Assembly (NCBI GenBank): GCA_033782935.1 | Contig: JAWQEG010001354.1 | Location: 351,001-415,000 of the forward strand | From: Petrolisthes cinctipes | Taxonomy: Eukaryota > Arthropoda > Malacostraca > Decapoda > Porcellanidae | DNA: 64,000 bases | Direction of reading: 5' to 3' | In this document: positions 5,703 through 32,872 of the stretch, one piece after another | Layout of the letters: every line of letters begins with the position of its first letter | Numbering within the stretch: the first letter of the stretch is position 1 | Translations under genes and position numbers: made by a program | The notes under the pieces: model-generated | Told to the model about the DNA's origin: nothing | Seen by the model: only the letters and a program-made list of their open reading frames with translations | Databases searched by the model: none

Positions 5703-5965
5703 ATAATAGTGCATTTGTCGCGGCTTCTAGCCGCTTAAATTGTATGTATTGGTTTGTGAAACCAGTACAGCTGGTTGCTATAGAATAGGCCCCTTCACAA
5801 GCCCAGGCCCCGTGTAGGCATAATCTGGGTTGGAAGGGTCAATTCCGTGACGTTCATCAGAAGTAAATAAAATTCAAATCTGGCGCTGTACTGATAGTGG
5901 AGCCACCTGGTGGTGGTGAGGTGAGGTATTAAGCCCCTCCTCCGCTGAATACCGCTCGTCCACTC
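5703..5965 (-). repeat. DIRS element 3' inverted terminal repeat
   Basis: The stretch from about 5755 to 5965 is the reverse complement of 12938-13145 with few differences. The outer 5703-5760 part, with its small GCGGCTTCTAGCCGC stem, is unique to this terminus and is copied in inverted form at 6030-6090 in the internal complementary region. Confidence 0.9.
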
Positions 5966-6017
5966 CAATGAGAAAGAAGTGAGTGCCTGCCGCATCGGGA
6001 GGTGGGTGGGACAGTAG

Positions 6018-6121
6018 AAGCTGTACTGGTTTCACAAACCAATAAATACAATTTAAGCGGCTAGAAGCCGCGACAAATGCACTATTATTGGTATAGTGAA
6101 ACCAGTACAGCTGGTTGCTAA
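6018..6121. repeat. DIRS internal complementary region
   Basis: Here the complements of both element ends are fused. 6018-6090 is the reverse complement of the left end (5703-5772), and 6087-6121 is the reverse complement of the right end (about 13128-13162). They meet at a shared ATAAT. This is the arrangement used by DIRS1 elements as a template to complete the termini and circularise. Confidence 0.88.
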
Positions 6122-6713
6122 GCATGCGATGCGGTAGGTGGGAGGTGAGGTGGAGGCAATCACGTGCTAGTTAAGAGTGGTTGAGAGCGGAGGGCAGGAA
6201 AGGTAACCGAGCCCGGTGAGGCAGCAGCTAACGCCCCTCCCGACACTGGCTAGGTGAAACGCCGTGGTGGGGGAGAAGTAGCTTATACCATATAACCGTA
6301 GACCATTCTGTTATAGACCAGAATTGTTACACATAAAGTCTTTATAGGTAGACTCGAGGGTTCGGGTCTAGGAGAGGAGGGGGGAGGTTCCCATGGATAC
6401 TCCCCCCCCCCTTTTCCTCCCCCCCCCCATTCCCCCCCCCCCTTATTCAAGTCTTCTGAGTTAGGGCTATGGCCCTCGCTCAGGTAATGTGATCCCGAGG
6501 GGATGAAGGAGGACACTAGGATCCAGATATCCTGTGTAATAATATCTCCTGTCACTCATCGTAGTTAATAATTGTTTGGAAAATGAATACACAAGAATTC
6601 CGTAACAATGTAATTTATTATAGACTCTCTTTCACCATATGTACACGTGAAGAATGGGGATGAGTATGAAGCTGTACAAGATGTGGATGAGGTATGGGAT
6701 GATGTGACGGGAC

Positions 6714-7790
6714 TTAAATCACCCGACCTTTTCTCTTCGGGCGGCCCCTCCCCCCCATGTGTCTCCCGCGGGGACCCTGGGGAATAGGAGGTGGAGTACC
6801 CATAGCCACACAGGGGGTAGGGGAGAGCGAGTGGAACAGGTACCTCGTCCTGAAGGAGGAAGTGGACGCCCAGCCCCCTAAATCCCTGACCCTCTCCACC
6901 GAGTGAGTCCTGAGGAAGGCGAGGGAGGCGGCCACGCCCCTAACGCTGTGAGCCCTCGGGGCGTGTCCGGGATCCCCGTTCTCTATCACTCGGCAGAGAA
7001 GGCGAGCGATTGACCTAGGGAAGAGAGGGTTACCGGACCTAGAGTTGTAGAAGAGGTGGTCCGGAGAAGCCCCTCTCGTCGCCTCCACGTATGCAACAAA
7101 GGCGTGGACTGGGCAGAGGGGGTGGAAATTTCCATCCCTCAGGAACGAGGGTACTGCGAGAGGGCCAATTCTGTCGTCAGCCTGCTCGTTCTTAGCTAGA
7201 AAAGCAGGGGAGGGGGAAATGGTTAAGGAAGTAAGGTTAGGGGTTACTGAAGAAAAGGCTGTGTGACGGGTCAGGGCTGCCAACTGAGAAGCCCTGTAAC
7301 CTGTAGCTAAGGCGAGCAGGAAGAGAGCTTTCTGGAGGAGGTGACAAACCTCCAGAGGGACCCCCTCGAAGGTCAGGTAGGAAAGGACACGATGAAGGGA
7401 CCAGGAGGGTGCCTGGGCCCGGTGAGGTGCGGTCCCCGCCCGAATCCCCATCCTCAGGAGAGAGAGAGGCCTCTCCGAAACCTTAATGTTAAAACCCAGG
7501 AGGAGGGGATCAGACAGGGCTGCGTGATGCGCAAGCACCGTCGCCGGGGCCCTGTTGGTGGAATCGGCGAGCCACGTGAGGAATTCCAGGACTGTGTCCT
7601 CCGAGATGACCCTGGAGGGGTGTCTTCGCAAGAAGTCCTGGAATCTTTTCCAGCACGATTCGTATTGTCGCACCGAAGACTGACGATGAGCCCTCAACAT
7701 CTTGTCCACTGTCTCCTTAGTGAACCTTTTGCTGAGGACTCCCCGTAGAAACTCCAAGCGTGTAGTTTCAGTGACGCTTGGAGTGGTGCA
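6714..7790 (-). CDS. DIRS tyrosine recombinase (ORF3)
   Basis: This ORF encodes the integrase of the element. The frame is open far upstream, to 8993, but recognisable protein begins near TTRLEFLRGVLSKRF (about 7765), overlapping the end of ORF2 by about 75 bp in another frame. An SAM-like core-binding segment (SSVRQYESCWKRFQDFL) is followed by the catalytic domain. The first catalytic Arg lies in ATGYRASQLAALTRH, the HxxR box is HSVRGVAASL, and the last conserved residues are in LGGWASTSSFRTRYL with the nucleophilic Tyr. All expected active-site residues are present and the ORF is uninterrupted. How it is translated (own start or frameshift from ORF2) is not visible. Confidence 0.85.
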   Translation of the reverse strand, partial: CTTPSVTETTRLEFLRGVLSKRFTKETVDKMLRAHRQSSVRQYESCWKRFQDFLRRHPSRVISEDTVLEFLTWLADSTNRAPATVLAHHAALSDPLLLGFNIKVSERPLSLLRMGIRAGTAPHRAQAPSWSLHRVLSYLTFEGVPLEVCHLLQKALFLLALATGYRASQLAALTRHTAFSSVTPNLTSLTISPSPAFLAKNEQADDRIGPLAVPSFLRDGNFHPLCPVHAFVAYVEATRGASPDHLFYNSRSGNPLFPRSIARLLCRVIENGDPGHAPRAHSVRGVAASLAFLRTHSVERVRDLGGWASTSSFRTRYLFHSLSPTPCVAMGTPPPIPQGPRGRHMGGRGRPKRKGRVI

Positions 7791-9694
7791 GACAGGGTGC
7801 TGGAGAGGCACGCCGATCCCAACTGAAGGGGATGCGGGCACCACCGGGACAACTCTCCGAACCACGGCTGTGCTGGCCAGCGGGGGGCTATGAGGAGAAC
7901 CCTCCCCCTGAAAGTGCGCAGCTTGAGGATCGCCTTCAGGAGGACTGAAGTGGCTGGGGGTGGGAAGAGGTAGAGATGACCCCACCTGTTCCAGTCCTCC
8001 GTGAAGGCGTCCGGGCCTTCCGCCTCTGTTCTGGATGAGAAAGTCAGGAACAGAGGGAGTAGGGCCGTGGATGGGGAGGCGAATAGGTCCACCTCCGGTG
8101 TCCCGTAGCGAAGGCAGAGAGACTCGAACACAAGGGGACGCAGTTGCCACTCGACTGACGTCCCCCTGAACCTGGATAGGGCGTCCGCCCAATCGTTCTC
8201 CCGCCCTGGCACGTAGCGGGCTGAGAGGTGAATGTCCCTCTTGGCCGCTATTGCGAAAATCTGTTCTGACAGGGACAGGAGAATTTCCGACCGTACGGTG
8301 CCCTGTTTCTGTAGGCACTGCACGGCCGCAACGTTGTCCATATCGAAGCGGACGCCTATCCTGGCAAACTGAGGGTGTCTGTTGAGCCATTCCTTCGCTA
8401 CCATCAACTCCCGGGCGTTGATGTGCAGTAGCCTTTCCCCTTCCTTCCATCCCCCGCACCGTTGATGTCCCAGGCAAGACTGGTATCCCCAGCCTACGTC
8501 CGATGCGTCTGTCGCCACCGTAATCCCCGGGGGAGGGAACACCCAGGGGACCCGCTGACGCAGGGCACCGGGACGTAGCCAGGGGCGAAGGAGGCGGTGG
8601 AGAGAGGGGGACACTTGCCTGGGAAGGTCCCTGTGTGCGGGGGACAGGTGGAGGTTTACCTCCCGCGTCAGCCTCCTGTGTTTCAGTCGTCCCAGGGGCA
8701 TTGCAGGGGCCGCGAAATTTAGGGACCCGAGCAATGATTCCCACTGGCGGCGAGAGAAAGTACGGGAAAAATGCGCCCGGCAGACGTGGCGGAGGGTCCG
8801 GCGGGCGTTGTCTGGAGCGAGAGAGAGGGTGGCCGAAAGAGAGTCCCACTCTATTCCTAGCCAACACAGCTTGCGAGTGGGGGTGAGAGAGGACTTGGGG
8901 ATGTTCAACAGAAACCCCATTTCCTCTAGCACTCCCCTCGCTACCCGGACGTTGTTTGCTACCTGCTCCTTGGAAGGGGCGTGAAGCAACCAATCGTCCA
9001 GGTACATGAGGGTGGGGACACCCGCCTCTGCCAGACGGGATGCCACCACCCTCACGAGTTTTGTGAAGACTCGCGGAGCTAGAGAAAGACCGAAAGGGAG
9101 CCTGGTAAACTGGAACGTCTCGGTCCCCACCTGGAAGGCCAGAAAGCGGCGAAACCTGGGGTGGATCGGGACGTGCCAGTAAGCATCCTTGAGATCCAGG
9201 GATGCTAACCAGTCTCCCTTCCTCAGAACTGTGCGGACCTGAGCAACCGAAACCATCCTGAAATGTAATGTTTTCACGAATTTGTTTAGCCTGCTCAGGT
9301 CCATCACCAATCTCGTTTTTCCCTGATCCTTTTTGGGGACCGTGAATAAACGAGAAAGAAAGACCCTTCCCGTCGCCCGCTCCACTACCCCTTTTTCCCG
9401 CATTTCCAACACATGCGGGACGACCGAAAGTGACACTTTGGTTGAGGCAGGAGGTAGACGTAGTGGCTGTAACGGGAGAAGACAGGTGTCAGTGAGAGTA
9501 CCGTTAATCCTAATCCCCCGGGGCCCGAGGGACCCGGGGTGGTTGGGGGGAGAATGACAGGAGAGGCAGAGATTTTGACCGCAAGGGAAAATCTGATTTT
9601 GACCTAACGGTAGCCCAAGGACGGGATTAGGCATAATTCATATGTCAGAAAGTAAGGATGACAGTTACTCACCGGAACAGTAATCCAGGGCCAT
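7694..9694 (-). CDS. DIRS RT-RNase H-methyltransferase-like polyprotein (ORF2), spliced
   Basis: Inferred as join of 9694-9673 and 9603-7694, about 643 aa. The first exon gives only MALDYCS plus one base. Intron 9604-9672 has GTGAGTAA and CGTTAG ends, and the frame is kept. Reverse transcriptase follows, with VPKKDQGKTRLVMDLSRLN, the Asp of SLDLKDAYW, RLPFGLSLAP and the catalytic YLDD at 9004-8993. RNase H comes next, with TDASDVGWG, NARELMVAKEW, FDMDNVAAVQ and GRENDWADALSR. The last part (VDLFASP, about 8085; then LFPPP and LIAPRWPAQPWF) matches the DAM-like methyltransferase region of DIRS1 elements. The in-frame ATG at 9634 lies inside the intron, so it would be used only in unspliced RNA. 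Confidence 0.85.
9604..9672 (-). other. Spliceosomal intron before DIRS ORF2
   Basis: Minus-strand donor TCCG|GTGAGTAA and acceptor GGGCTACCGTTAG|G bound a 69-bp interval. Splicing is phase 1 and connects the ATG at 9694 to the RT frame without a stop, whereas unspliced RNA meets a TAA inside the donor. Confidence 0.7.
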
Positions 9695-9781
9695 GACAGG
9701 CCCTGGCGAATTATCCTTGCTGCCCAGCCGTGGGTGGGCCAGGCTGCTGACCACCCTGTGAGGCAGCCCAGAGTGGGACCC

Positions 9782-12152
9782 TCAAGTGGCGCGGTCCTTC
9801 TGGGCGGGGTGGTTGAAGGAGGACTTGGGCTTCGAGTAGGGCTTGGAGCCCTGTCCCCTTCCTTGAAAGGGCTGCTGGCCCCTCTGGGAGGGCCTGTTGT
9901 GTGCTCTCGGGGGAGTGGGATAGGAGGGCCTCGGTAGCCTGGAGGGCTGGGAGGGCCTCCGGGGCTGGTAGGCTGGTCTGGCTGGCTGTGGGGCACGTGG
10001 CCTACGGACAAACAGAATGATTAGGACCCAAAGTAGACCCGAAAATCCTTTCATTTCACCCCCGTGACAACTCGGGTAAGACGAACACGAGAGGTACTTA
10101 CTTGGAGGTGGAAGGCTTTGGTAAATTGATTACCGCTGGGAGGGAGGCGAAGATCGTGTCTGTCGCCGGTTGGTCAAAGAGGGCGGGGGACAAGGGGGCA
10201 GCTCGCCCCACTCCCCTCTGTGCCATCTCCGGCGCAGATTTAGCCGCCGCCTGGCGGGCTGCCAGTCTCGCCTCGGCGAACGCCTTCGCCTCCTCCCGCA
10301 TGAAGTGGGTAGCCATTGCCGCCACGCCCTCCATCACGGTGGCCATGGAAGAGAGGGTGTCACTGTAAGGGGTAAACAAGGAAAAAACCGAGCGAACCCG
10401 GGGATAAGTACCCGGGAGTAACAGGGAGACCCTCTACCCAGCATCCCTAAAAACATGATACACGAGTAAGGTACTCACGCTAGCTGTACACCCGACATCT
10501 CGTGGTAGGAGTTGGTTAGGGCGTTGAGGCAGTCCCTAATCAATGAGGCGGCTGCTCCCGTGGAGATGGTGTGGGCCAGCTCCAGACGGGTAGCAGATTC
10601 CGCCTGCCTCAACTTACCATCGGGCTCCTTCAGCTGATAGGGGACCGGGGGCTCCTTCTCCGTCTTCCACAGGCACTCCCTCAAGCCCGGGGGAGCCCGG
10701 GAATGAGGGAGGATGACGGGGAAAGACGGAGGAGGGGGCTTCCTGGGTGCGTTGTTCCTCTGGTGGTCCAGGGACTTAAGGAGAAGGGCTGGAATATCCA
10801 GGTCCCCTTCACTCTTATCCCCCGGGAAGTACGCGTCCGGGGAAAGGAGGAGAGCCGTGTTACCGTGGGAGCGGTCAATCCTCCAAGCCCCGGACAAGTG
10901 TAGCTGGCTGTACTCCACCAGGAAACCCATCGCGTCCAGGGTCGCCGCAGAGGACACCCTAGCTGAAGTGGGTAAGGGCGCTGAGATAGGACGGACCTTG
11001 TAGAAGGGAATAGCCTCGCCCTTCTCATCCGCCCCCCACTTCACCACGACGTCATCCCTCCGGATCCACACGTCTGGTTGAGCCGTGTCCGGAGACCAGG
11101 CCACCAGTCTGCCCTCCTCCGAAGAGTGGGTCCAAGCAGGAGGGAGGAGAGACCAAGAGTAGGGAAGGTATCCGTCTCCCGAAGGAGGGGGTGACGGGGA
11201 CGGAGGTGCGGAGGTAACCAACTCCTCAGCTACGTCCCCCGACGGAGACTCGAGCCCTGGGGAAACGGGAGGCACGAAAAGGACTCCCACATCCCCGGGA
11301 GGACTCGAGCCTTCGACGGGAGCAGCAGCGGGAGGCGGGGGAACAGGAGCGGGTTCCGTAGCGACAGCCGGAGGCTGCGCGACGGAAGCCCCAGGAAAAG
11401 CGTGAGGAATAAGGGTATGGAAGATCTTAACTATCTTCCTCGACGAGGGGCTGTCCCCCCCCCCGCTTACCCCTGCGGGAATTGCGGGCGGGCGAAGGAG
11501 AGCTCCCCGACGACGAAGAAGAGGAAGAGGACGACGAAGAAGAGGAGGAAGGAGAACGGCGACGAGCACGGGACTTCCTGGAGTGGCGGGACCTTTTAGC
11601 CGAACGCTTGCGTCCTCTAGAGAGGCCTGAGGAGCCAGCTCTAGCAGGAGGCGAAGCTGGGGGTTCCCTGCTGGGCCCTTGTACCGGTGAGGCAGTCGGG
11701 AGAACCAGCGCGACAGACTCGCTCGCTTCCCGGGGGGATAAGCCCCGAGAAGGAGTCGTAGTACCGCCTAGGGAAGCAGGCTCAATCTCTCGGGCCTCAG
11801 GAGGTTCTAGCCCCTGAGACTCCGAGAGACAGGAAGAAGGGTAACGGGTCCTGAATAAACCCAGGTCCGCTCCCAAAATCGGGTCCACCCACGCCAAAGA
11901 AGAACCGTCTCGTTTGTGGGCCATTCTCCTAGCCCTCGTCCACGCCATACGAAGAGAAGCAAGGGCAGGGAGCTTGGAGCGGGCAGAAGGGGAGGTAACC
12001 CGACACAACTCAGCCCAGGGGCGGCACACACCACACGCCAAAGGGTCGTAACCCAAGGGAGTGAAGCAGGGTGCGTGAGGAGAACAGTGCAGGTGTCCGT
12101 CAGGCGAGACCCGCATGGTACATCCTGAGGCAGCACAAAGGGCACGAGTAGG
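9782..12152 (-). CDS. DIRS Gag-like ORF1, multi-exon
   Basis: Proposed exons on the minus strand are 12152-11471, an exon ending at 10479, 10362-10102 and 10001-9782. The first codes for a Cys-containing N-terminus and then an Arg/Ser-rich tract with a long serine run and basic flanks. The next is Pro-rich, then holds a conserved-looking segment ending SYHEMSGVQL. The last exon is Pro/Arg/Gln-rich, as in nucleic-acid-binding Gag tails, and ends at a stop at 9782. Two junctions keep frame exactly (10479 to 10362, phase 2; 10102 to 10001, phase 2). The 12152 acceptor has a strong pyrimidine tract. The acceptor after the donor at 11470 is not settled: 11431 and 11311 both keep frame. The true start codon was not found and should lie in an upstream exon. 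Confidence 0.65.
10002..10101 (-). other. Spliceosomal intron in DIRS ORF1
   Basis: A 100-bp interval with donor CAA|GTAAGTACC and acceptor TTTGTCCGTAG|G on the minus strand. Removing it joins two open frames that are otherwise out of register. Confidence 0.7.
10363..10478 (-). other. Spliceosomal intron in DIRS ORF1
   Basis: A 116-bp interval with donor TAGC|GTGAGTAC and acceptor TTTACCCCTTACAG|T on the minus strand. The unspliced frame stops at the donor (TGA at 10477-10475), and splicing restores it in phase 2. Confidence 0.75.
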
Positions 12153-12937
12153 CTGGGGGAGAAAAGAATACACAAACATGGGTTAACACGTGCAAACACT
12201 GGAACACAAACCCATCCTCCCCGAAGGAAAGAAGCGCGGGACACGCCCGCTGAACCTGGGGACCAGAACACGATCCCCCACACTCGCGCAGCCGCCCAGG
12301 GAAAAACCCCGTAAAACCAGAATCGTCCGCCACATGGAGCGGGTAAAAAAGGGCCCCCCCGGACAGATGAACCAGAAGGAGGGGTAGGAGGGGACCCGAT
12401 AGCCTGAGAAGAAACACTCCAGGCTGAAAATAATGGAAGAACCCCAAAATAAAATAAAAAACCCCCGCCCGGGAGAGGAAGAGAGAACCAGGGCACAATT
12501 CTCACTCCCCCCTACCGAGAGGGGACACATAATAATCGGGGAAGGCAAGAGGAAGGGCTGCAAAGACCCCATGTGGTCACCACGTGGGGTGGGGAAGTCC
12601 CACGTGGCGCCCACTAACCTCGCTAAAAACCCCAGAAAACCCCGATAAAATACACACGAAGAATGTACTAGTGGCAGGAGGGACAGTGAAAGAGGGGACA
12701 GACGGAGAAAAACTCCGAAAACAGGGGCTGAAAAGCCCCCTTCGCTTAAGGAAAGAACTAAGTCCTAACGAAGAAAAAAACCCCATAAACACCTGAAAAC
12801 CCTCCTAGAAAACACACATGATACATCTGCAAAGCAGGCTAGCCACTAGAACACAAAAGAAAACTTAGCAGGAACACGCGACACAATACCATAGCGTAGC
12901 AGCGAGGAGCGTAGATGTTGACAGACGTGTGTTCCGC
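12153..12937 (-). other. DIRS 5' leader region
   Basis: Between the 5' terminal repeat and the first Gag exon lies a leader whose 3' edge is a classic acceptor (TTCTTTTCTCCCCCAG, ending at 12153). A possible donor, GCGAG|GTTAGT, lies near 12618. Several overlapping open frames are present, but none has a protein-like composition, so the first exon and start codon remain undetermined. Confidence 0.4.
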
Positions 12938-13162
12938 GACAGAGTGGACGAGCGGTATTCAGCGGAGGAGGGGCTTAATACCTCACCTCACCACCACCAG
13001 GTGGCTCCACTATCAGTACAGCGCCAGATTTGAATTTTATTTACTTCTGATGAACGTCACGGAATTGACCCTTCCAACCCAGATTATGCCTACACGGGGC
13101 CTGGGCTTGTGAAGGGGCCTATTCTATAGCAACCAGCTGTACTGGTTTCACTATACCAATAA
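12938..13162 (-). repeat. DIRS element 5' inverted terminal repeat
   Basis: Reverse complement of about 5755-5965. The unique outer end, GTTTCACTATACCAATA, is repeated in inverted form inside the internal complementary region (6087-6105). Confidence 0.9.
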
Positions 13163-13990: not shown

Positions 13991-14845
13991 CTACTTCTTG
14001 TGTACAGTCACTACAAATAAAAAGGTAACAAGGCACGGAGTCTTATCACAGTTTAAATGAAACACCTGGTTACAGAACAAACATTGAATTAAACTATTTC
14101 CTAAAAACTCTGGCATGCTACATTTACAGCATAAAAGAATATCATAAAAGTTATTATTTGCAGGGGTTAGGTTGGATGGACTAACAGGAATTGTTTGCTT
14201 AAGAATGCATAACTGGGTAATTATAACCAACAGCAAAGAAGCTCCTGAACCAACAAAGATGAAACAATGTTAATACATTACTCACCAATCAGGTCTACTC
14301 CAAGTAACTCAAAGGGTTCCTTGACATTAATGGGACACATTTCTGGGGCCTGAATCTTCAGTGTTGTAAACATCTGGCACTGACTGAAGTAGCAATCTGG
14401 AAAAAATGGTAAAATTACTGGAGAGCAATACAGCAGTGGGATTAGAGAGTAATGCATTCAATATTGAATGAACACTTTCCTAGAATCCAACTCATTTCAT
14501 ATACACTTATCAATGTCTTTGTGTCATGTTATGGTCTACACAAGAAACACACACACATACATAATGCAGGATGTCCTGTGTCATACTTCTCCAATAGGCA
14601 ATAGTACACCTTGGAGATGTTCTCTTATGTTACATTCCAGCCACTGTGTCCTCCAACAGGACTACTGTGGTACAGCTTGAAGACTATGGGCAGGTCATCA
14701 TAATTCCTCAGGACCTTCCTTCTATCTGCAGCTTGTTTGAAATACAGCATCTTGTCTGGAAGTACAGCTCCGGACAGATCAAGGGACCCCACCTCTTCCA
14801 CCAGCTACTTGGTGTGAGCCTCAGTGGATCTGGTATCACTGGCAG
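13991..14845 (-). pseudogene. Decayed integrase gene with PHD-like tail
   Basis: Three exon-like pieces lie on the minus strand. The first (about 14845-14540) reads VLPDKMLYFKQAADRRKV and then the HHCC zinc-binding start YHSSPVGGHSGWN of Gypsy/Ginger-type integrases, but has a TAA where THREKI-like sequence is expected. The second (about 14412-14287) starts after an ATTTTTTCCAG acceptor, carries CYFSQCQ and VKEPFELLGVDLIG, the entry to the catalytic core, and ends at a GTGAGTAATG donor. The third (about 14170-13991) has CCKC and CLFCNQVFHLNC, like a PHD finger with its last cysteines lost. The catalytic core is missing. It could be a transposon remnant or a dead copy of an integrase-derived host gene. 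The palindrome boundary at 14762 falls inside its first exon. Confidence 0.6.
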
Positions 14846-16144
14846 GTGGAGGGGGGGAGGGGAGAAATGTGGGCGGAGTTATATAGGGGGTAATGTGGAG
14901 GCGTTACCAATGTTGAGCCATCCAGAAATTTGAATCCCGAACCACTTGTGATCATGGATGTGAACCACTCACTGGAAGGTGGTAGGAGGGGTTGGGTTGA
15001 GGAGAGGGTGTAAAACTTCACAAGTGATCGAGTAGTAGTATTATAGATGGAGAGAATTATTGGATCAAGTAGCTAAAGATTATAAACGAACAAAGCCGAC
15101 TGTCGCCTTTATTATGTTTTCTTCTGTAATCTAAATCCAACTCTGATGCTACATTCTATAGGATATTATTTGTTTGAAATGAATCCAGATTTTACGTAAT
15201 ACAATTCACACGACACTATTATTTTATGACTAATATATCAAGCCATGCACCACCTACACAGTGTTGAAATAAATTTCAAGTAAATCCTTTATCGTTACCC
15301 TGTATTATTCACGACATTTTCTAAGAAACTTTTAGTGTGTAACTGGTTACCAAAGGATAATAGTTATATAGTGTAAGTTAATCTTTACCCAATAACCACT
15401 CCATCTGTTCTCCCCCACCCCATCCTCCCTTATTCCATTCGCTGTTTCCTCTCCCTCCTTCCCAGCAATCCTTTACTCTCCATCTTACCACCATCACCAA
15501 CATTCTGTGTGTTGCTGCATAATCTGTTAATGCGCAAACAAGACCAGAATAGGAATAAAAGTGATATTTGGTATGCAAATACAATCCGTTATATATGACG
15601 AATATATTTATTACCCTTATTTATTTATCTGAGGTCAACATTCAGACGCCGGTGTTAGTGAACCAATCACAAGATTTAGAGGATATTGTGTCAGCACTAA
15701 TGTTATTACAAATTAAAACAGGGAAAAATTGAAATTAGACATTTATTGGTTATTGTTTACATGACTTGTCACTTTAGGTGAAAACTCCACAAGTCCTCGT
15801 TACGAAGCCTTCCACACCCATAACCCAACTGTGACTAGGCACCACACTGTAAATGATGAACACGTTATATGTATAGTTGTTGTTATTAATTGGTGTCATA
15901 CAATTATAATACCTGTTAACTTAATATAACCTCAAGTTTTTACTTCGACCTCACGTTTGCATTAAGCATGTGTAATGTTTTTTTTTATTATTATTATAAT
16001 CACCTGGATATGTATTGCTTTAGACCCTTAGCCACGATGAGATACAGTGTATACACTATTTATATACGGTACACTTCTATGAACACATTAAGGCTTGAAA
16101 TACTATAGATTACATATTTTATGTTCTTACTCATCAATTTGTTA

Positions 16145-16490
16145 CTAGTATCGTGTCCAGCCACCCTCCTTCTCAATGACAGCCTGCAGTCGCTCGGGCA
16201 TTGAGGCGCCATGCCTTCTCACTATATCGGGTTTTCCCCGAAAAATCTCCCACTGTGCTCTGGTGTGCCGTAACAACTCTGCTGTGGTTCTCTCTCGTTC
16301 CGGCTCCCACGTGTTAACAATAGAACCCCATAGATTTTCTATGGGGTTCATATCACAGTTCTAACTAGACCAATCTATCACCTGCAAATTATCTTGAGCA
16401 GCAAACCATTCTTGAACTATCCTGGCCATATGGATAGGGCATCGGTCGTGTTTAGGACAGATGAGGGTGAGTAGTTGACACTGTCTATTG
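16145..16490 (-). pseudogene. Tc1-like transposase C-terminal exon, left-arm copy
   Basis: Mirror copy of 19741-20086, read on the minus strand. It carries the second and third catalytic acidic residues (HDRCPIHMARIVQEW and NPIENLWG) and a stop between them. Its matching N-terminal exon in the same orientation is not in this arm but across the palindrome centre, at 18600-18288. Confidence 0.8.
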
Positions 16491-17639
16491 TTCACCCCTG
16501 TAGAGAGATACTGATTATTATCATTTGGATATTAAGCAACAAATAACGGAGCCGAAACAATCCCTTTTCTGTCTTCAGCTCTCCCTGTATTCTTTTCGCC
16601 CCTCATGCTGGCAGTCCCCCTCTTTATCTCCTTTTCTCGCTGTAAAATAAATAAACTTATGCCTATATCTTTCAAGTAACTGGCAACCTCACACAACCTC
16701 CTCTCACTTGTCTTCTCTCTCTCACACTCCCCCTTCCTTTCTTGCCTTCTGTAGTATTCTTTATCTTTTCTTTATCATATTTTTAACCTTCTCATTCGTT
16801 CTTTCAAAGTTTTAATCACATAGGCCTTTCTCCCTTATCACCTATAGTGCTTCAAATTTATGCAAGCGAAATGCTGCGGCTGGGATAATATGGTTAATAC
16901 CGTTTTGGTTCTTTGTATTCTGTGGATTTACAAAACAACTAGAAATTCATAGCGAAGGATATGATAATAGTTATGTAGAACAAGTGTTGGCAGATACACA
17001 TTCTTGACGGGATAATCCCAGCCACAGCATTTCGCCCTCTTAAAACAGAAGGACTATAGGTTTCATGCATTGCCATTTGCCAGTCTGTTGCTAGTCAGAA
17101 TATTAACTTGTTAAACCATTTTGCAGGAAAGAGAAATATATATATATTTTTTTTTAAGTTACTTATGGGCATTATTTAGATATATTAACTTACTTTTACT
17201 TACGTCCAGCATTACTGTGCAGAACATGTGACACAATAAGGACCACAAGGACAGTAATGGTGGTCAACGTGATTCTCATTAATCTCTCTATATGCTACTG
17301 AAAACAATGTTTTATGCTCAATTACAGAATTATGTTCTCAGCATGATAATGATAGCCAAAGATAATGAAAACAATATAAACAAATTAACATTTATTGCAC
17401 AACAAATATGCTTATGCCTCGGTGCTACTGTTTCAAGGGAGTAACCAGCCCACACTTAATCACATGGAACCTGAAAAGTTTGAATAAAAGATCAATTATA
17501 TATATATAAATACAATACCATATTATATCTGTTTGTCTATCTACGTCTTTGTGTATATGGCACTTTTATTAATATTCATGATCAGCACTGTGAAATATAA
17601 ATTTAAATTTATTTGGCAAAGCAGAGGACACTGACTAGT

Positions 17640-17943
17640 ATGGCAACCTACCATACGGAAGACCTCCACGTTGCACTACACACCGCAGAAGCCGATGCAC
17701 AGACCTTGCTGTCAGCGAGAGGACCATCAGGAGAGTGTTGCACGAAGCGGGGGTGCATCACCGGACTCCAGCAAACAAGGAATTTTTGACTGACCAACAT
17801 CGCGAGGGAAGGCTACGGTTTGCCCAACAATATGTTGACAAGCCAGAGGAGTTTTGGAAGAGAGTGATCTGGACGGATGAGAAAACCTTCTCATCTTCGT
17901 GTCACGGAAGGCGCCACTGCTGGAGGAGAAATGATACTCGGTG
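17640..17943 (+). CDS. Tc1-like transposase N-terminal exon, left-arm copy
   Basis: This exon encodes the helix-turn-helix DNA-binding region (GRPPRCTTHRRSRC, then SERTIRRVLHEAG) and the start of the DDE catalytic domain, with the first Asp in VIWTDEKTF. It ends RHCWRRNDTR at a near-ideal donor, TCG|GTGAGTATAA. In Tc1 relatives about 60-80 further residues precede the second Asp, and these are not found nearby, so a middle exon is missing or lost. On the same strand the C-terminal exon lies at 19734, beyond the palindrome centre. The first exon start is uncertain. Confidence 0.7.
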
Positions 17944-18054
17944 AGTATAATTTTTGAGGTTGTCGTTTCTATAAACTATTCAGTCATAAGCAACCATAAG
18001 AATATACTCGAATAAAAAATTACTGCCGGGTGACAACCAGTATCGTTACAACGT

Positions 18055-18176
18055 TACAGCAGTGCATATAACCCACACACACACTGTCAAGAAATTTAAT
18101 ACTGCGCAACCCTATATGCCAAAAGTAATTTACTCTGAATCGACTTACAGCAGTATCTGTTTTATTAATGTTGCTG
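18055..18176. other. Palindrome centre spacer
   Basis: This 122-bp non-palindromic spacer separates the two arms. It holds a short CA run and TTACAGCAGT-like fragments but no gene. Confidence 0.9.
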
Positions 18177-18287
18177 ACGTTGTAACGATACTGGTTGTCA
18201 CCCGGCAGTAATTTTTTATTCGAGTATATTCTTATGGTTGCTTATGACTGAATAGTTTATAGAAACGACAACCTCAAAAATTATACT

Positions 18288-18600
18288 CACCGAGTATCAT
18301 TTCTCCTCCAGCAGTGGCGCCTTCCGTGACACGAAGATGAGAAGGTTTTCTCATCCGTCCAGATCACTCTCTTCCAAAACTCCTCTGGCTTGTCAACATA
18401 TTGTTGGGCAAACCGTAGCCTTCCCTCGCGATGTTGGTCAGTCAAAAATTCCTTGTTTGCTGGAGTCCGGTGATGCACCCCCGCTTCGTGCAACACTCTC
18501 CTGATGGTCCTCTCGCTGACAGCAAGGTCTGTGCATCGGCTTCTGCGGTGTGTAGTGCAACGTGGAGGTCTTCCGTATGGTAGGTTGCCATACTAGTCAG
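18288..18600 (-). CDS. Tc1-like transposase N-terminal exon, right-arm copy
   Basis: Mirror image of 17640-17943, read on the minus strand, with the same helix-turn-helix, VIWTDEKTF and splice donor. With the C-terminal exon at 16490-16145 it would form the minus-strand version of the split gene. Confidence 0.7.
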
Positions 18601-19733
18601 TGTCCTCTGCTTTGCCAAATAAATTTAAATTTATATTTCACAGTGCTGATCATGAATATTAATAAAAGTGCCATATACACAAAGACGTAGATAGACAAAC
18701 AGATATAATATGGTATTGTATTTATATATATATAATTGATCTTTTATTCAAACTTTTCAGGTTCCATGTGATTAAGTGTGGGCTGGTTACTCCCTTGAAA
18801 CAGTAGCACCGAGGCATAAGCATATTTGTTGTGCAATAAATGTTAATTTGTTTATATTGTTTTCATTATCTTTGGCTATCATTATCATGCTGAGAACATA
18901 ATTCTGTAGTTGAGCATAAAACATTGTTTTCAGTAGCATATAGAGAGATTAATGAGAATCACGTTGACCACCATTACTGTCCTTGTGGTCCTTATTGTGT
19001 CACATGTTCTGCACAGTAATGCTGGACGTAAGTAAAAGTAAGTTAATATATCTAAATAATGCCCATAAGTAACTTAAAAAAAAATATATATATATTTCTC
19101 TTTCCTGCAAAATGGTTTAACAAGTTAATATTCTGACTAGCAACAGACTGGCAAATGGCAATGCATGAAACCTATAGTCCTTCTGTTTTAAGAGGGCGAA
19201 ATGCTGTGGCTGGGATTATCCCGTCAAGAATGTGTATCTGCCAACACTTGTTCTACATAACTATTATCATATCCTTCGCTATGAATTTCTAGTTGTTTTG
19301 TAAATCCACAGAATACAAAGAACCAAAACGGTATTAACCATATTATCCCAGCCGCAGCATTTCGCTTGCATAAATTTGAAGCACTATAGGTGATAAGGGA
19401 GAAAGGCCTATGTGATTAAAACTTTGAAAGAACGAATGAGAAGGTTAAAAATATGATAAAGAAAAGATAAAGAATACTACAGAAGGCAAGAAAGGAAGGG
19501 GGAGTGTGAGAGAGAGAAGACAAGTGAGAGGAGGTTGTGTGAGGTTGCCAGTTACTTGAAAGATATAGGCATAAGTTTATTTATTTTACAGCGAGAAAAG
19601 GAGATAAAGAGGGGGACTGCCAGCATGAGGGGCGAAAAGAATACAGGGAGAGCTGAAGACAGAAAAGGGATTGTTTCGGCTCCGTTATTTGTTGCTTAAT
19701 ATCCAAATGATAATAATCAGTATCTCTCTACAG

Positions 19734-20086
19734 GGGTGAACAATAGACAGTGTCAACTACTCACCCTCATCTGTCCTAAACACGACCGATGCCCTATCCA
19801 TATGGCCAGGATAGTTCAAGAATGGTTTGCTGCTCAAGATAATTTGCAGGTGATAGATTGGTCTAGTTAGAACTGTGATATGAACCCCATAGAAAATCTA
19901 TGGGGTTCTATTGTTAACACGTGGGAGCCGGAACGAGAGAGAACCACAGCAGAGTTGTTACGGCACACCAGAGCACAGTGGGAGATTTTTCGGGGAAAAC
20001 CCGATATAGTGAGAAGGCATGGCGCCTCAATGCCCGAGCGACTGCAGGCTGTCATTGAGAAGGAGGGTGGCTGGACACGATACTAG
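19734..20086 (+). pseudogene. Tc1-like transposase C-terminal exon, right-arm copy
   Basis: The exon starts after a clean acceptor (TATCTCTCTACAG). The frame gives HDRCPIHMARIVQEW with the second catalytic Asp, then NPIENLWG with the Glu, about 35 positions apart. It ends GGWTRY and a stop near 20086, the usual Tc1 C-terminus. An in-frame TAG just before NCDMNPIEN interrupts it, and the same TAG is in the mirror copy, so the mutation predates the duplication. As written, the product would be truncated before the last catalytic residue. Confidence 0.75.
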
Positions 20087-21469
20087 TAACAAATTGATGA
20101 GTAAGAACATAAAATATGTAATCTATAGTATTTCAAGCCTTAATGTGTTCATAGAAGTGTACCGTATATAAATAGTGTATACACTGTATCTCATCGTGGC
20201 TAAGGGTCTAAAGCAATACATATCCAGGTGATTATAATAATAATAAAAAAAAACATTACACATGCTTAATGCAAACGTGAGGTCGAAGTAAAAACTTGAG
20301 GTTATATTAAGTTAACAGGTATTATAATTGTATGACACCAATTAATAACAACAACTATACATATAACGTGTTCATCATTTACAGTGTGGTGCCTAGTCAC
20401 AGTTGGGTTATGGGTGTGGAAGGCTTCGTAACGAGGACTTGTGGAGTTTTCACCTAAAGTGACAAGTCATGTAAACAATAACCAATAAATGTCTAATTTC
20501 AATTTTTCCCTGTTTTAATTTGTAATAACATTAGTGCTGACACAATATCCTCTAAATCTTGTGATTGGTTCACTAACACCGGCGTCTGAATGTTGACCTC
20601 AGATAAATAAATAAGGGTAATAAATATATTCGTCATATATAACGGATTGTATTTGCATACCAAATATCACTTTTATTCCTATTCTGGTCTTGTTTGCGCA
20701 TTAACAGATTATGCAGCAACACACAGAATGTTGGTGATGGTGGTAAGATGGAGAGTAAAGGATTGCTGGGAAGGAGGGAGAGGAAACAGCGAATGGAATA
20801 AGGGAGGATGGGGTGGGGGAGAACAGATGGAGTGGTTATTGGGTAAAGATTAACTTACACTATATAACTATTATCCTTTGGTAACCAGTTACACACTAAA
20901 AGTTTCTTAGAAAATGTCGTGAATAATACAGGGTAACGATAAAGGATTTACTTGAAATTTATTTCAACACTGTGTAGGTGGTGCATGGCTTGATATATTA
21001 GTCATAAAATAATAGTGTCGTGTGAATTGTATTACGTAAAATCTGGATTCATTTCAAACAAATAATATCCTATAGAATGTAGCATCAGAGTTGGATTTAG
21101 ATTACAGAAGAAAACATAATAAAGGCGACAGTCGGCTTTGTTCGTTTATAATCTTTAGCTACTTGATCCAATAATTCTCTCCATCTATAATACTACTACT
21201 CGATCACTTGTGAAGCTTTACACCCTCTCCTCAACCCAACCCCTCCTACCACCTTCCAGTGAGTGGTTCACATCCATGATCACAAGTGGTTCGGGATTCA
21301 AATTTCTGGATGGCTCAACATTGGTAACGCCTCCACATTACCCCCTATATAACTCCGCCCACATTTCTCCCCTCCCCCCCTCCACCTGCCAGTGATACCA
21401 GATCCACTGAGGCTCACACCAAGTAGCTGGTGGAAGAGGTGGGGTCCCTTGATCTGTCCGGAGCTGTAC

Positions 21470-22440
21470 AATAATGAAAGTTAAACATATGTGAGTTAAG
21501 AAATTCCATGTAAAATCCATATCACACTAATAAGTACACACACAAGATTCTCCTCACTTGCTTTTTATAAACATACCAATTTAATAAATACAGTTCCCTA
21601 CCACTTAAGAAACAAGATTTAATACATTATCAGAATCAAAGAAGTTTGTAACATTTAATTTTCTCATAAACATTAAGAGTTATATTTCCATAGGTATAAA
21701 CTTATCTCAACTATCCATGTGGGTGAAGAAGTCCATTATCTGTGTACCATTCATACTTACTTCATATACCACCCACGAGAGTGAGAAAAAAAAAAAAAAA
21801 AAAAAGAGATGGGAGAGTAATTTCTCTATACCGTACTTGACTGTCTAGTTTCAACACCACAATCTAGAGAGATGTCAGAGAGGGCAGCTCCTACAAAATA
21901 GTATATAATTCCGCTTTCCATGTGATAAGTAGATCTTTAATTAAGTAAATAAATAAATAAGAAGAGACTAAAACAACGTACAAACACTGATTGGGTTTAA
22001 CCTTAGATGTTTGTCAATTTCATATAAAAACTACTGATAGGTTGCTCGCCAAACAGGTATCTAATGTATAATATATTATAATATAACTTGCCTGCTTCAT
22101 TCCACTCAAAAAATGATGAACGCCTCCTTATACAGTACACTCTTCTCGGCTTTGGTGAGTCCGAGCGAGTGTATATCAGTGTTACAATCACTGTTTTTGG
22201 GGGGATAGTCTTTTCAACGGCCCCTCTCTCGTCCTCTTTTTTTTCTTTGTGTTGCCTGATTCTAGTTTTTCTCTTTGTTTTCTCTTATTATCCACATATT
22301 ATGTAATATTTATTTTATCTTTTCTGTCTCTTCTTGCCTGTCTAGCTCAAACAAAGCTTTTCCAATGATTTTGTCGTTATCTTCTTCAAAAAAGTGTACA
22401 TTTTTGCTAAATTGGCAATCCTGCTCTCTTCCCGTCGTCA
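21470..22440. other. Non-coding stretch
   Basis: AT-rich DNA right of the palindrome, with a 20-base A run at about 21786-21806. No gene seen. Confidence 0.5.
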
Positions 22441-22443
22441 CTC

Positions 22444-22537
22444 GTGCGCCTGGCACCTTCAAACCCCCACGCATGCGCAGTTGATGGGTTCCAGTGGCGT
22501 TCCACTTCCTACTGCTACACCGGCTTCCCGCCACTGC
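22444..22537 (-). promoter_or_regulatory. ETS/NRF1-like repeated module, copy 2
   Basis: Reverse-orientation copy of 1719-1790 with the same CACTTCCTACTGC and ACGCATGCGCAGTTGAT core. The flanks differ from copy 1 beyond the block. Confidence 0.4.
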
Positions 22538-22889
22538 GTACAGTGTTGCCATATACAAGAATACTTTCAAATTTTAGGCAAATTTTGTCCACACTTGGGA
22601 AATCGTATGAAGAATGTTCAATTAATAGCCCAGTTGAAGGGAAATTCAATAATTTAAAATTGGGATAAATAATTTTTTGATCACTAGACGAAATAACCTG
22701 ACCTAACCTACAATGTGGCTACCTTCGGGAACTAACTTAATGTCCTTCGAGACCTAACTTAATGTCCTTCGAGACCTTTTATAATAAAATAGATCCTGTG
22801 GATAGGAGCTAAAAGTATTCCGATTGGGTGGGTCAGGCGTATTATACACAACTGTCTGCTGAACCTTCCGTAATTTTGCCAACACTGTC

Positions 22890-23163
22890 CGCCCGACCGC
22901 ATATTATCCAAGTCTGGAAGGGTATGCTTCAGTGCTTGATTTGGTTAGGTTAAGGTTAGGTCCAGTTTAGGTTAGGTTATGTCAGGTTACATTATGTTCA
23001 ATACAGGTAAAATAAGCTGGGAAAGAGAATGAAACTATTTCAAAAATTATCCCATGGTTGGTTTTATCTTTATAACCCAAACGTTATTCTCCTTCCAACC
23101 GCCATGATTTTGGCCCAGCAGTAAGCGCTAGCCCTCCAGACTTGGATAATATGCCGCCCGACC
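22890..23163. mobile_element. Mutator-like MITE with 9-bp target duplication
   Basis: The 256-bp body at 22899-23154 has terminal inverted repeats of about 23 bp (GCATATTATCCAAGTCTGGA). It is flanked by a perfect 9-bp direct repeat, CGCCCGACC (22890-22898 and 23155-23163). Nine-base duplications are the signature of Mutator-like elements. It has no ORF. Its left half contains several TTAGGT units. Confidence 0.75.
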
Positions 23164-23433
23164 TCAGTTCGTCCCTCAGCTACAGAAATGTCCTATCTTA
23201 AAATTGAAATATCTAGCAAAGAATACATTTCCACAAGATAATTCCACTGAATATTGATAAAGGTAACCAAACCCTACCTAACCTAACCTATCCTAACCAG
23301 TAGTTCGCCGGCACAGATAATACCAATATTAGCTCACTTTTATTACATAAAGTGCAGTATATATTAGAAATGAATTCTTAAGGTATTCCTGTTCAAACGA
23401 TCTTTAGTAATTGCCATTTAAACCATAACTGAC

Positions 23434-25733: not shown

Positions 25734-25882
25734 CACCTAGCCTTACCCAACATAACTGGAATCCTTATGACCTTTGGAAGGTTTTATGACCAAGAATACC
25801 GATACATTCTGACATAATATTATATTATACGAGTGTAAGGAATACGAACACATATATTTATCACAGATAACTATACTTAACT

Positions 25883-27126
25883 TACAGACCAATAGCTATT
25901 ACTTCCACTCTGGGTAAGGTATTTGAAATTGTAATCAATAATCACATAACTAAACATCTCGAAACCAATAAACTGTTAAACAATAAACAATATGGATTCA
26001 GGCACGGACGATCCACTGCCGATATACTCAGCTATATTACACATAACATTTTTCAGTCAATAGATCATCATGGTGAAACTCATACAATAGCTTTAGACAT
26101 CTACAAGGCCTTTGATAGAGTATGGCACCAATCCTTGGTATCCAAGCTTCCTAACTATGGTCTTACATCACTGGTCCCACATATTTCCTCATATCTCAAC
26201 AACAGGAAAATCCGTGTTATGATAGAAAGAATTTTTTCAACATTCCATTCCATTAATGCTGGCGTCCCTCAGGGATCAGTCTTGACCCCAACTTTGTTCC
26301 TTATACACATCAATGATCTCTTAAATGTCACTTACAACCCTATCCACTCTTATGCAGATGAATCAACACTTCATAGTTCATTCACACTTAATCTAACATT
26401 CGTTAAAACTGATGTTCTAAACTCCAAAACTAACACTGCAATCTCTTTAAATCAGGACTTATCCATAATCAACGAATAGGTACAGACAAATTTGGTCTCC
26501 TTTAATATTAATAAAACTCAATACATTCAATTTTCCAATAGTCAAATCCCTTCTGTATCACTCATAACTTTCAATAATACAAATATTCCTTTATCTTCAA
26601 GTATTAATATTCTTGGTGTATCCTTCAGTGCTAACCTCAGATGGACATCCTATGTTCATTCAATTGTTAAAAAGGCCTCGCCAAAGTTAGGTCTCCTTTA
26701 CAGAGTTCGTGAATTTTTCACTGAAGAGCAGTTAGCTGTAATTTATAAGAGTCATGTTCGTTTTCATATGGAATACTGCGCACCACTATGGAGTGGATGT
26801 GGGGAGGTGGCACTTAGGCTATTAGATAAAATTCAAATTAAAGCTGTACGAATTATCAATAACCCTCTAATCACAAATGAATTCCCTCCCTTACACATCC
26901 GAAAAAATGTTGCATCCCCTGCCTTATTTTATAGATATTATCATGGTAAATGTTGGGATGAGCTTGCCCTAATGGTGCCACCTCATGGCATCTTTCCCCG
27001 TGGTACCAGGTCAGCTGCTAGAGCCCAAGACTTTGCAATCTCTCCTCCCCAATGTAGAACCACTGCTTTTCAGATCTCATTTATTCCCAGAACCACTTCC
27101 TCAAAACTGCTTTCAACCAGTTTTTA
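25883..27126 (+). pseudogene. Truncated LINE reverse transcriptase
   Basis: One reading frame covers the RT palm through thumb and C-terminus, interrupted by a single TAG at 26477. Motifs in order are YRPIAITSTLGKVFE, NKQYGFRHGRSTADIL, DIYKAFDRVWHQ, NAGVPQGSVLTPTLF, SYADES and SINILGVSFSANLRW, then the C-terminal TRSAARAQDF and FIPRTTSSKLL. The catalytic YADD box reads YADE. The endonuclease is missing (5' truncation at about 25880). The motif style is Jockey/CR1-like, clade not certain. The 3' end runs into a duplicated tail at 27175-27330. Confidence 0.85.
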
Positions 27127-27174
27127 ATCCTCGGTCATTTAACTCCAACTGTTACAGACATTATATGAATGAAG

Positions 27175-28412: not shown

Positions 28413-28467
28413 GCCATCGTCAACACCACGGATGTTCATACATACGGCCCCTTGTGACACCTCTGAT

Positions 28468-28701
28468 GACTGTTTATAGTGGAAAGTGTCGACAACACCA
28501 CGAGTTACAGTGTTCCTTTACCATATTATCCAGCCACACAGGTCTGACTGTTTATAGTGGAAAGTGTCGGCAACAACACGAGTTACAGTGTTCCTTTACC
28601 ATATTATCCAGCCACACAAGTCTGACTGTTTATAGTGGAAAGTGTCGGCAACAACACGAGTTACAGTGTTCCTTTACCATATTATCCAGCCACACAGGTC
28701 T
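28468..28701 (+). repeat. Three 78-bp tandem repeats
   Basis: Units start at 28468, 28546 and 28624, each beginning GACTGTTTATAGTGGAAAGT. The unit is a multiple of three, so a 205-codon frame (28148-28765) stays open through it, but this protein resembles nothing known to me and is probably not real. Confidence 0.9.
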
Positions 28702-29274: not shown

Positions 29275-30801
29275 TTACAATAGTAGATATTGGGCTGTTC
29301 TTGCCCTTAAGGGTTTTAATTTGTTGTAGCGACGGGTGGCCCTTAATGGAGGGGGGAGGGCTGGTGGTAGCAGCAGGCGATGGCCAGGTTGTGACAGTAG
29401 CCTCTCTTCAAACTTGGTCAGGTCATGACGGTACCTCTCCTTCAGTGAGGAAAGGTTTAGGGAGATTAACGCCTGTTGATAGGTGGTGTGGGCTGGTCCC
29501 AAAATGATCCTGCATGCTCTTTTCTGTACACGTTCCAGCCAGCACATCTGCGTGGTGTTTAGTGCAGATGACCAGGCAGGAGAAGCATACGTCAGTTTAG
29601 GGAGGATGAAGGTGGTGTAGATATCCCTCAGTTGTTGATGTAGGGCACCCAGGGATTTCATTGTTTTAAGCATGTGCAGCCTGTAGGTGGATGCCTGGAT
29701 GGTGATGGTGGTGTGCAGCTTCCAGTCCAGTTTGTTGTCGATGGTGCTCCCCAGTAGTTTGGTTGATTCCACTACATGAAGTGAGTGGGAGCCAATTGTA
29801 ACAACTTGTGGTGGGACTGGAGTTGTGGCTGTACAGACATGCATCACTACGGTCTTGTTTTGGTTGATGGTAACATGGTTCTCCCTTGTCCAGATTTGTA
29901 GGCTATCGAGGATATTTTGTAGAGGACTGTAGTTTGGAGAGTCGTTGTTGATGGTGATCCCTACAGTGCAGTCATCTACGTATTTCCAGTGATGTTGTGT
30001 GTCCATGAGAGCGTCATTTATTAGCATTAGAAAACATAGAGGCCCCATTTTGGTACCCTGGGGGATTCCACAGGTCTGGTGGTGGTGGTGGGTTAAGTTG
30101 GTGTTCTGGTACCGTGTGACCTGTCAGCGCCCACTCAGGAAGTCACACAGCCAGGAGATTAGATAGTCAGGGAGGCCCAGGTGTATTGCCTTATAAATGA
30201 CGGTAGTGTGGTCAACTAAGTCGAAAGCTTTCCTAATGTCAATGAAGGTTAGAGCGAGGGAGGTTTTGCGTTTGTCAAGATTCTGATGAATAAAATCAAG
30301 CAAACTGACAAGGCAATGAGTGGTGGAGGTTGATTTCATGTTGCCATATTGCTTCTTATTAATTTTTTCACAGATGGTGCTATAGGCCCAGCTGAAGATG
30401 AAATCTTCACAAATGAGACTTGGGATGGGAGTGATGACAATTGATCTGAGATCATTAAGTGTGGGAGGGTTAGGCAACTTGGGGATTGGTGTTATATAGG
30501 CGGTTTTCCATTCAGCTGGGCATTTACTTTGTTTGATGGAGGCATTGATTATTGAGGTGATGGGTACTGCTAGTTCTGGGGCAAATTCCTTATAAATTTT
30601 GAGGCAAGTCAATGGGGGTAGTGGATCATTTTTATTTGAGGCTAAGAAGCTTTTTGGCAACTTGAAATGTTTCAACAGTAGGAGGAGGGGAGGATTGGAG
30701 AAGGTACTCTGGTAGGAGGGAGAGGTTAAGTGAAGGAAAGCTTTGACAGATAGTGGCAAAATGGGTGTTAATCCTTTCTGCTGCCTCCTCCGCTGACACA
30801 T
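29275..30801 (-). pseudogene. LINE reverse transcriptase (CR1/L2-like)
   Basis: Two open pieces (30801-30124 and 30048-29275) lie in the same frame, split by a TGA and a short gap. Motifs are AEWKTAYITPIPK, NKKQYGNMKSTSTTHCL (normally QFG), LTFIDIRKAFDLVDH, then GTKMGPLCFLMLIND and the catalytic YVDD in HWKYVDDCTV, then LGSTIDNKLDW and the thumb. The C-terminal LTKFEERLL part is intact to the stop. Active residues are present but the stops make it non-coding today. Confidence 0.85.
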
Positions 30802-30876
30802 CGGCGAGACAATTAATAGGGTTTAGTTTCTTACCCTGGACAGAGGTCTCTAATCTTTGTGTACCACTGACTCGTG

Positions 30877-31872
30877 TTACTTTGGAGGAGATGGTGAATC
30901 TTGGTATGTCCTCTTGGCCTCACGAATTCCTCGTATGACTTGGTTCCTCAACTGTCGGTAGAGGGTTGTGTTGGTATAGAAAGCCTGGTTACGTTGGTCT
31001 AGGAGTCGCTTGATTCTGGGGGTAATCCAAGGGAGATCAGATGGATGTCTTTTGGATGTTTTGGGTGGGAAGAAATGGTGATAGGCTTCCATGACTGATG
31101 AGTGATAATTCTCCCACTTGATGTTGACATCTTCTGGTGTTATAACCTCCATCCATGGATATGTCGTAATCCACTGTCCGAACTGCCGTAGTGAAGAATC
31201 TGTGAGTGGTCGGTAGGTAGTGGTGGTAGTGCACACCCGTGGTAGGGAGGTGGTGGGGGTGGGAGACCACAGTATAGATAAGTGAGGGCTACGTCCCATG
31301 GGTCGGAGTGGCTGGGGAGGGAGGTACAGGTCCGCCATATCAGTCAGGATTAGATCAAGGGTGTTATGGCCATGGGTGGGGAAGTCCACTATTTGGCGGA
31401 GATTAAGATGGTCAGTTACGTCTCCCATGTCAAGTTCGTTGAAGTCGCCACATATAATCAACCTGCTGGAGGGTAATCTGGTTTTCAGGGTGTCGGCAGT
31501 GGTGATGATGTGGTCGATGAGTTGCGGGCTGGTGGGTGAGCATGGTGGATGGTAGGCAAGGCAGAGGATGACAGCTGCGGTGTGGCACGAATGACGGGTA
31601 GATGTGATTTTGACCCACATAGCCTCTATCTCCCTGGGGATTTCTACACCAAGGCTGCATGGGGACAGGTTCTCATGGGTGAACATCACTAAGCCACCAC
31701 CTCTACGGTCTGTCCTTAGGTGGTGAAACAACCTGTAATTTTCAATAACACATGTTTCGGGGACCACCTGCCATGCTTCTGTGATGGCCACTATGTCAGG
31801 GTTCACTGGCTTCACTGAGGTTATCACTTCATCTAATTTGTTGTTTAGAGATGTCACATTTGAGAGGAGCAC
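30877..31872 (-). pseudogene. LINE apurinic-like endonuclease
   Basis: The endonuclease nicks target DNA for target-primed reverse transcription. Motifs in order are SNVTSLNNKLDEV, PDIVAITEAW (catalytic Glu), RGGGLVMFTHENL, CGDFNELD, TLDLILTD and GRSPHLSILW, where the usual SDH is degraded (SPH). The following segment is the linker toward RT. It stops at 30877 before RT begins. The frame differs from the upstream leader at 31875-32111. Confidence 0.8.

Positions 31873-32837: not shown

Positions 32838-32872
<35 letters not shown>

Follow-up and report, generated by a model that had tools for sequence, protein, structure and literature searches.

A palindromic, foldback-like transposon of the Tc1 kind in the genome of Petrolisthes cinctipes

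The stretch of DNA analysed here, termed the window, covers 64,000 nucleotides of the crab Petrolisthes cinctipes (positions 351001-415000 of contig C1353, GenBank JAWQEG010001354.1) and carries a 6.7-kb palindrome. A preliminary description had reported a near-perfect structure with indel-free arms of 3293 bp around a 122-bp spacer, all confirmed by self-comparison; the 'handful of mismatches' it mentioned are indeed few, exactly two. The arms extend over 14762-18054 and 18177-21469, without indels, and the mismatched pairs are 15015/21216 and 17322/18909. Such arm length and identity exclude a chance origin. Complementarity breaks off abruptly at both outer ends, where the outermost pair (G at 14762 and C at 21469) is part of a GTAC target and not of the element, the ends of which read G-TA-CAGCTCCGGACAG ... 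CTGTCCGGAGCTG-TA-C. Given a TA duplication, the element proper spans 14765-21466 (6702 bp) and is made up of 3290 + 122 + 3290 bp. Long terminal inverted repeats are thus nearly the entire element, which is a foldback-like architecture. The features are as follows.

14763-14764, no strand: left TA flank, forming GTAC with its neighbours (14762-14765)
14765-18054, plus strand: left arm (terminal inverted repeat) of the transposon, from self-comparison
18055-18176, no strand: spacer of 122 bp; a 96-bp match to it (93%) lies between transposase exons 1 and 2 in L034, a longer relative; inverted in copy L009
18177-21466, minus strand: right arm (terminal inverted repeat), the left arm in inverted orientation, 2 mismatches
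21467-21468, no strand: right TA flank, forming GTAC with its neighbours (21466-21469)
21470-22524, no strand: right flank, a section of a multicopy repeat hit by the insertion

Complete palindromes of the same kind are present at further sites with different flanks. In the assembly searched (1.484 Gb, 9385 contigs), a query with one arm, for which 40 of 2775 candidates were scored, found 72 matches, and 32 regions (18 palindrome regions and 14 more) were retrieved for comparison; regions are designated L and contigs C. Among the window and the 18 palindrome regions, eight have both arms and the spacer (window, L009-L013, L024 and L026), with an additional arm piece beside the spacer in L011 and a spacer of 120 bp in L012. 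Seven are without the centre (L015-L021), and the remaining four have other parts missing (L014, L022, L023 and L025). The ends are constant. In all 16 two-ended copies compared, which occupy 13 sites including the window, the left TA is directly preceded by G and the right TA directly followed by C, and the same G-TA or TA-C pattern is found at 14 of 15 further single ends, the exception, L037, being broken off. In the genome, the 24-bp element end occurs 304 times (152 per strand; reversed control, 0) and is directly preceded by GTA in 301 cases. Among the 100 ends listed of these 304, 84 can be matched into 42 inverted pairs with spans of 3304-11715 bp (6701-6714 bp in six pairs), and 16 have no partner. 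A 27-mer from the spacer occurs 88 times (48 + 40; control, 0), long relatives included.

On its right side the window copy is flanked by a multicopy repeat. A 400-base query in which both flanks are joined at one GTAC matches all 40 places scored among 210 candidates, over at least 398 bases and at 98-100%, with the top score common to four. These places are empty insertion sites carrying a single GTAC. TA, the target duplication of Tc1/mariner elements, stands at both ends of the 16 two-ended copies and is single in the empty sites. Duplication of 2 bp and of 4 bp are indistinguishable here, because GTAC gives an identical outcome either way; inspection by eye of the flanks of the 16 two-ended copies revealed no target duplication beyond GTAC. 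The window palindrome is a single insertion of a DNA transposon with dispersed copies. Its two almost identical inverted arms could also be read as local DNA that was duplicated, in inverted orientation, where it stands. This has a negligible probability, since fixed ends, a GTAC target and empty sites mark the palindrome as a mobile element: the whole 6.7 kb is missing from these sites and is found elsewhere with other flanks.

Alternatively, the palindrome might have been made by a hairpin read or a mis-join. Fold-back artefacts are a known problem in long reads, as stated in the available part of a published account (PMC12870357), and one insertion, considered below, lies on three contigs, more than a diploid needs. 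On the other side, these ends and this spacer are found again at unrelated sites, many loci have the architecture in common, and the empty sites show precise insertion. The assembly, as far as its available description goes, derives from one male and comprises 1.49 Gb in 9391 contigs built by hifiasm from PacBio HiFi reads (PMC10849366), and the reported read N50, 12.9 kb, exceeds the palindrome length. For these reasons an assembly or sequencing artefact is very unlikely.

Two observations concern the surroundings of the insertions. The flanks of L010 and L016 are alike on both sides (79% over 78 bp and 90% over 100 bp), as if two copies of an older repeat had each been hit at an identical position. 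To the right of the window palindrome, 22520-23270 has matches of 99% on C5053, C1284 and C1290 that do not include the adjoining repeat, as if the repeat insertion were absent there.

Each arm contains relics of two transposase exons, delimited by comparison with L034.

17594-17941, plus strand: transposase exon 1 relic, left arm; one stop and a 19-residue gap region; 76% to L034 exon 1
18290-18637, minus strand: transposase exon 1 relic, right arm (mirror copy)
16148-16519, minus strand: transposase exon 2 relic, left arm; one stop; 53% to L034 exon 2
19712-20083, plus strand: transposase exon 2 relic, right arm (mirror copy)

In the exon 1 relic, 17639-17941 matches HTH_Tnp_Tc3_2 (Pfam, E 2e-13); in the exon 2 relic, 19871-20083 reaches DDE_3 only at E 0.17, below the cut-off. 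In either arm exon 1 points toward the centre and exon 2 outward. Across the centre, exon 1 is followed by exon 2 on both strands, an order that would suit two working, interlocked mirror-image transposase genes, each composed of exon 1 from one arm and exon 2 from the opposite arm. Stops in the window relics of both exons and the gap in exon 1 led to the rejection of a working mirror-image gene, which is extremely unlikely.

Longer relatives have the same ends as the palindrome and additional copies of both exons. The transposase of L034 contains HTH_Tnp_Tc3_2 (E 4e-17) and DDE_3 (E 4.9e-8) according to Pfam, with a stop in exon 2 of the 11.4-kb element L034/L035 (C830). In L027 (C7706) exons 1 and 2 are open, with no stop in the parts read, and 35 residues, counted by hand, separate the putative second catalytic D from the putative catalytic E. 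Of the two exons, only exon 2 has a close copy in L028 and L031. Homologues retrieved by protein search have Tc1-like domains. The closest named ones are proteins of P. manimaculis (up to 94%, with 51% of the query covered), and the best named protein of P. cinctipes reaches 51%; gene prediction in both species was preceded by repeat soft-masking, according to the available part of the genome report (PMC10849366). By its predicted protein, the family is a member of the Tc1/mariner superfamily with a Tc1-like transposase. The spacer matches L034 over 96 bp (93%) between both exons, and likewise L027 (94%), so that the centre of the palindrome corresponds to the transposase intron, and the 122-bp spacer is probably an intron remnant. 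Also in C830, about 6.2-7.3 kb into the 11.4-kb element, lie self-complementary stretches of 491 bp (97%) and 251 bp (80%), both in the region missing from the short palindrome.

In P. manimaculis, gene model P0010 runs from exon 1 to the start of exon 2 and on into a stretch antisense to exon 1, which is 86% identical over 63 residues to the antisense exon 1 reading of L026. This suggests that inverted exon 1 copies exist in that species too. Pieces of transposase exons occur in the deposited models P0010, P0002 and P0012, P0002 having exon 1 sequence twice.

Changes after insertion can be followed at one insertion present on C1353 (window), C4071 (L009) and C3635 (L019). The flanks of window and L009 are identical over 528 and 530 bp; those of L019 are identical to the window over 528 bp on the left and differ by one mismatch in 510 on the right. 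The variants of the window copy are these.

15172: arm position 410; G, also at the mirror position 21059; A in 35/35 other aligned arms
15015: arm position 253, left arm only; mirror position 21216
17322: arm position 2560, left arm only; mirror position 18909

At arm position 410, both window arms have G, and A is found in the arms of L009 and L019 and in 31/31 arms of other copies. At 852, T occupies both arms of L019 and C the other two contigs and 30/31 other arms, the remaining one having a gap. At 1073, both arms of L009 have a TG insertion, also seen in 4/31 other arms. Variants in a single arm occur at 253 and 2560 in the window and at 573, 2060 and 2079 in L009; past position 1106, L019 offers a single arm only. 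Relative to the flanks, the spacer is inverted between window and L009; its orientation would be the first feature to err if a contig were mis-assembled inside the palindrome. L019 is without the centre and measures 4358 bp including both TAs, against 6706 in the window. Both-arm variants confined to one contig, the inverted spacer and the lost centre indicate that arm conversion, spacer inversion and centre loss took place after insertion. Among the origins listed in the preliminary description, arm-to-arm gene conversion is supported, recent inverted duplication in place is not and assembly error is unlikely; a palindromic transposon was absent from that list.

Similarity between own arms extends to most copies. 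Left-right mismatches were counted in 17 copies with both arms, over 821-3351 columns: none in L019; one in L010, L011, L018 and L026; two in L017, L021 and the window; three in L009, L012, L014 and L020; six in L024; 10 in L015; 12 in L016; 16 in L013 and 17 in C830. Own arms therefore differ by 0-3 in 12/17 copies, and arms from different sites by 8-35, as counted on 20 copies represented by a single arm each. In a tree of 13 copies (26 arms), of which the bootstrap had not fully settled, own arms are sisters with starred support in 9/13; those of L009 and L015 pair without support, and those of L013 and L016 are unpaired. Copy-private variants in the 17 copies number 45 in both arms and 67 in one arm, after columns with gaps or fewer than eight other rows were dropped; C830, L013, L015 and L016 account for 45 of the 67. 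Collectively, the arms are homogenised in most copies. Loss of the centre shows no clear trend toward weaker homogenisation: L015 and L016 have 10 and 12 mismatches, L017-L021 have 0-3 over shorter stretches, and L013, which is intact, has 16.

Arm likeness could instead come from a source that was already symmetrical, or be made during transposition, with no conversion at all after insertion. Most of the 45 both-arm private variants could indeed be inherited, and a second shared site, on C651 (L014) and C3730 (L020) with different deletions, is without a clear both-arm event after insertion. However, contigs with one and the same insertion differ in both-arm variants (410 and 852) and in spacer orientation, and the source copies themselves would need homogenisation. 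This explanation is unlikely.

Centre loss is seen in several copies. In L015-L021, 7 of the 18 palindrome regions, the spacer is gone together with unequal lengths of both inner arm ends, and the deletion joints have an overlap of 1-5 bases. L015 and L016 have one common joint, in mirror orientation and at different sites, which suggests that a centre-deleted copy transposed again. In L014 the spacer is retained and 857 bp of one arm are missing, and in L022, L023 and L025 one arm is kept and the other is mostly or wholly gone.

The comparisons establish for this family fixed ends, a GTAC target, empty sites, dispersed copies, broken exons paired as mirror images and longer relatives with the same ends. 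The window palindrome is very probably a non-autonomous copy of a Tc1-like transposon, the terminal inverted repeats of which have grown inward over the transposase gene until 122 bp, probably intron, were left. The repeats would first have spread over exon 2 from one end, placing a reversed exon 2 at the other end; a second spread, over exon 1 from the other side, would have left 122 bp of the intron. Such growth may have proceeded by template switching or by arm-to-arm conversion. The palindrome would then be mobilised in trans by the transposase of the long relatives. Once the element is in place, its arms may recombine, which would convert them and flip the spacer, and breakage at the centre followed by end joining may remove the centre.

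Several observations weigh against this account. No transposase exon with a start codon was found. Three contigs with one insertion in one diploid animal mean that at least one of them is a duplicate or assembly surplus. Homogenisation is not general, given the 10-17 differences between own arms in C830, L013, L015 and L016, and the compared arms of L015 and L016 differ by 15 despite their common joint. The L014/L020 site provides no clear conversion case. Of the five differences at positions comparable in all four arms, four are confined to one arm, and at the fifth only L014_L shows the state that is common in other copies. Column 1907 has one state in the two arms of L014 that is missing from L020_R and found in one other arm.

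Other elements populate the window. A high-GC, element-like stretch at 5756-13151 is bounded by 210-nt inverted repeats (5756-5965 and 12942-13151, 100% complementary) and contains a reverse transcriptase open reading frame (ORF) at 7694-9637 on the minus strand (RVT_1, E 1e-22); a 924-residue ORF overlapping it has no Pfam match at 0.001. We take this element to be possibly DIRS-like. Two elements similar to long interspersed nuclear elements are located at 38637-44384, with RVT_1 and RNase_H domains at 38637-41312 (minus strand), and at 51321-56907, with RVT_1, endonuclease and RNase_H domains at 53032-56907 (plus strand). Pieces of retroelements lie at 25871-27127 (RVT_1 at 25871-26479) and 29275-31995 (Exo_endo_phos at 30877-31995). 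A second inverted repeat, at 32258-33133, has 282-nt arms, 95% complementary and 312 nt apart, with a CA/TG-rich interior. Short tandem arrays are found at 36283-36462 (36-bp unit), 28467-28701 (78 bp) and 51481-51669 (57 bp, inside an ORF).

Sequence shared between the palindrome and its relatives raises the idea of silencing. In maize, the derivative Mu killer, which has an inverted duplication of part of a transposase gene, silences its parent, and a hairpin RNA has been proposed as the agent in the available part of the account (PMC3440606). The crab palindrome likewise carries an inverted duplication of part of a transposase gene in a derivative. In L034, and likewise in L027, 174/385 of the 21-mers of exon 1 match an arm exactly (0/385 for every one of three shuffles), and the exact runs reach 193 nt (L034) and 148 nt (L027); for exon 2 the figure is 0/496 in both. 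Hairpin RNA read through the arms could therefore target the parent. Somewhat speculatively, the palindromic derivatives may act as a brake on their parent in the manner of Mu killer, spread by the very transposase that they silence and with the hairpin kept perfect by arm conversion, a role we consider quite improbable. If true, read-through transcription of the arms would yield hairpin RNA, about 3.3 kb in length, that matches exon 1 of the relatives exactly over up to 193 nt.

Long palindromes are unstable and, to our knowledge, few natural replicate series of one palindrome in one genome are known. The family described here is such a series and a useful one: its copies are dispersed, two of its sites occur on more than one contig, and arm conversion, inversion of the spacer and loss of the centre can all be tallied in it against mutations of single arms.

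Short-centred palindromic elements have precedents. In Caenorhabditis elegans, Tc4 and Tc6 are palindromes of about 1.6 kb with arms below 1 kb; Tc4 has a 3-bp target duplication, and its longer form Tc4v carries a gene in one arm. The crab palindrome is likewise short-centred, yet its arms reach 3.3 kb. Foldback (FB) elements consist of long inverted repeats and little else, as does the crab element, and their arms are built of short tandem repeats; within the crab arms, a scan reporting repeats of at least 60 nt found no direct-repeat family. Among the literature titles and abstract openings listed, in which subscription journals are little covered, none mentions a palindromic Tc1-like element in crustaceans.

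Galileo of Drosophila, as presented in the available part of its description (PMC4168063), belongs to the P superfamily by its transposase, makes target duplications of 7-8 bp and is called Foldback-like. Copy 112 of D. willistoni is 9021 bp long with repeats of 4246 and 4680 bp, and the transposase segment is described there as absent; in other copies the repeats have recruited transposase sequence, and the range goes from nearly complete elements to repeats only (PMC4168063). Unlike Galileo, the crab element has a Tc1-like transposase and a GTAC target: Pfam shows Tc1-type domains only, the flanks of the 16 copies reveal by eye no target duplication of 7-8 bp, and the empty site has GTAC once. 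As in Galileo, so far as its available description extends, the element is almost solely inverted repeats, and repeat growth over transposase sequence is the first step proposed. A cut-and-paste transposon would thus have become a palindrome through growth of the terminal repeats over its own gene, now in an element of the Tc1 kind. Galileo and the foldback elements are the nearest known kinds, and the window element is a palindromic, foldback-like transposon of the Tc1 kind, with an architecture known from another superfamily and here unusually perfect.

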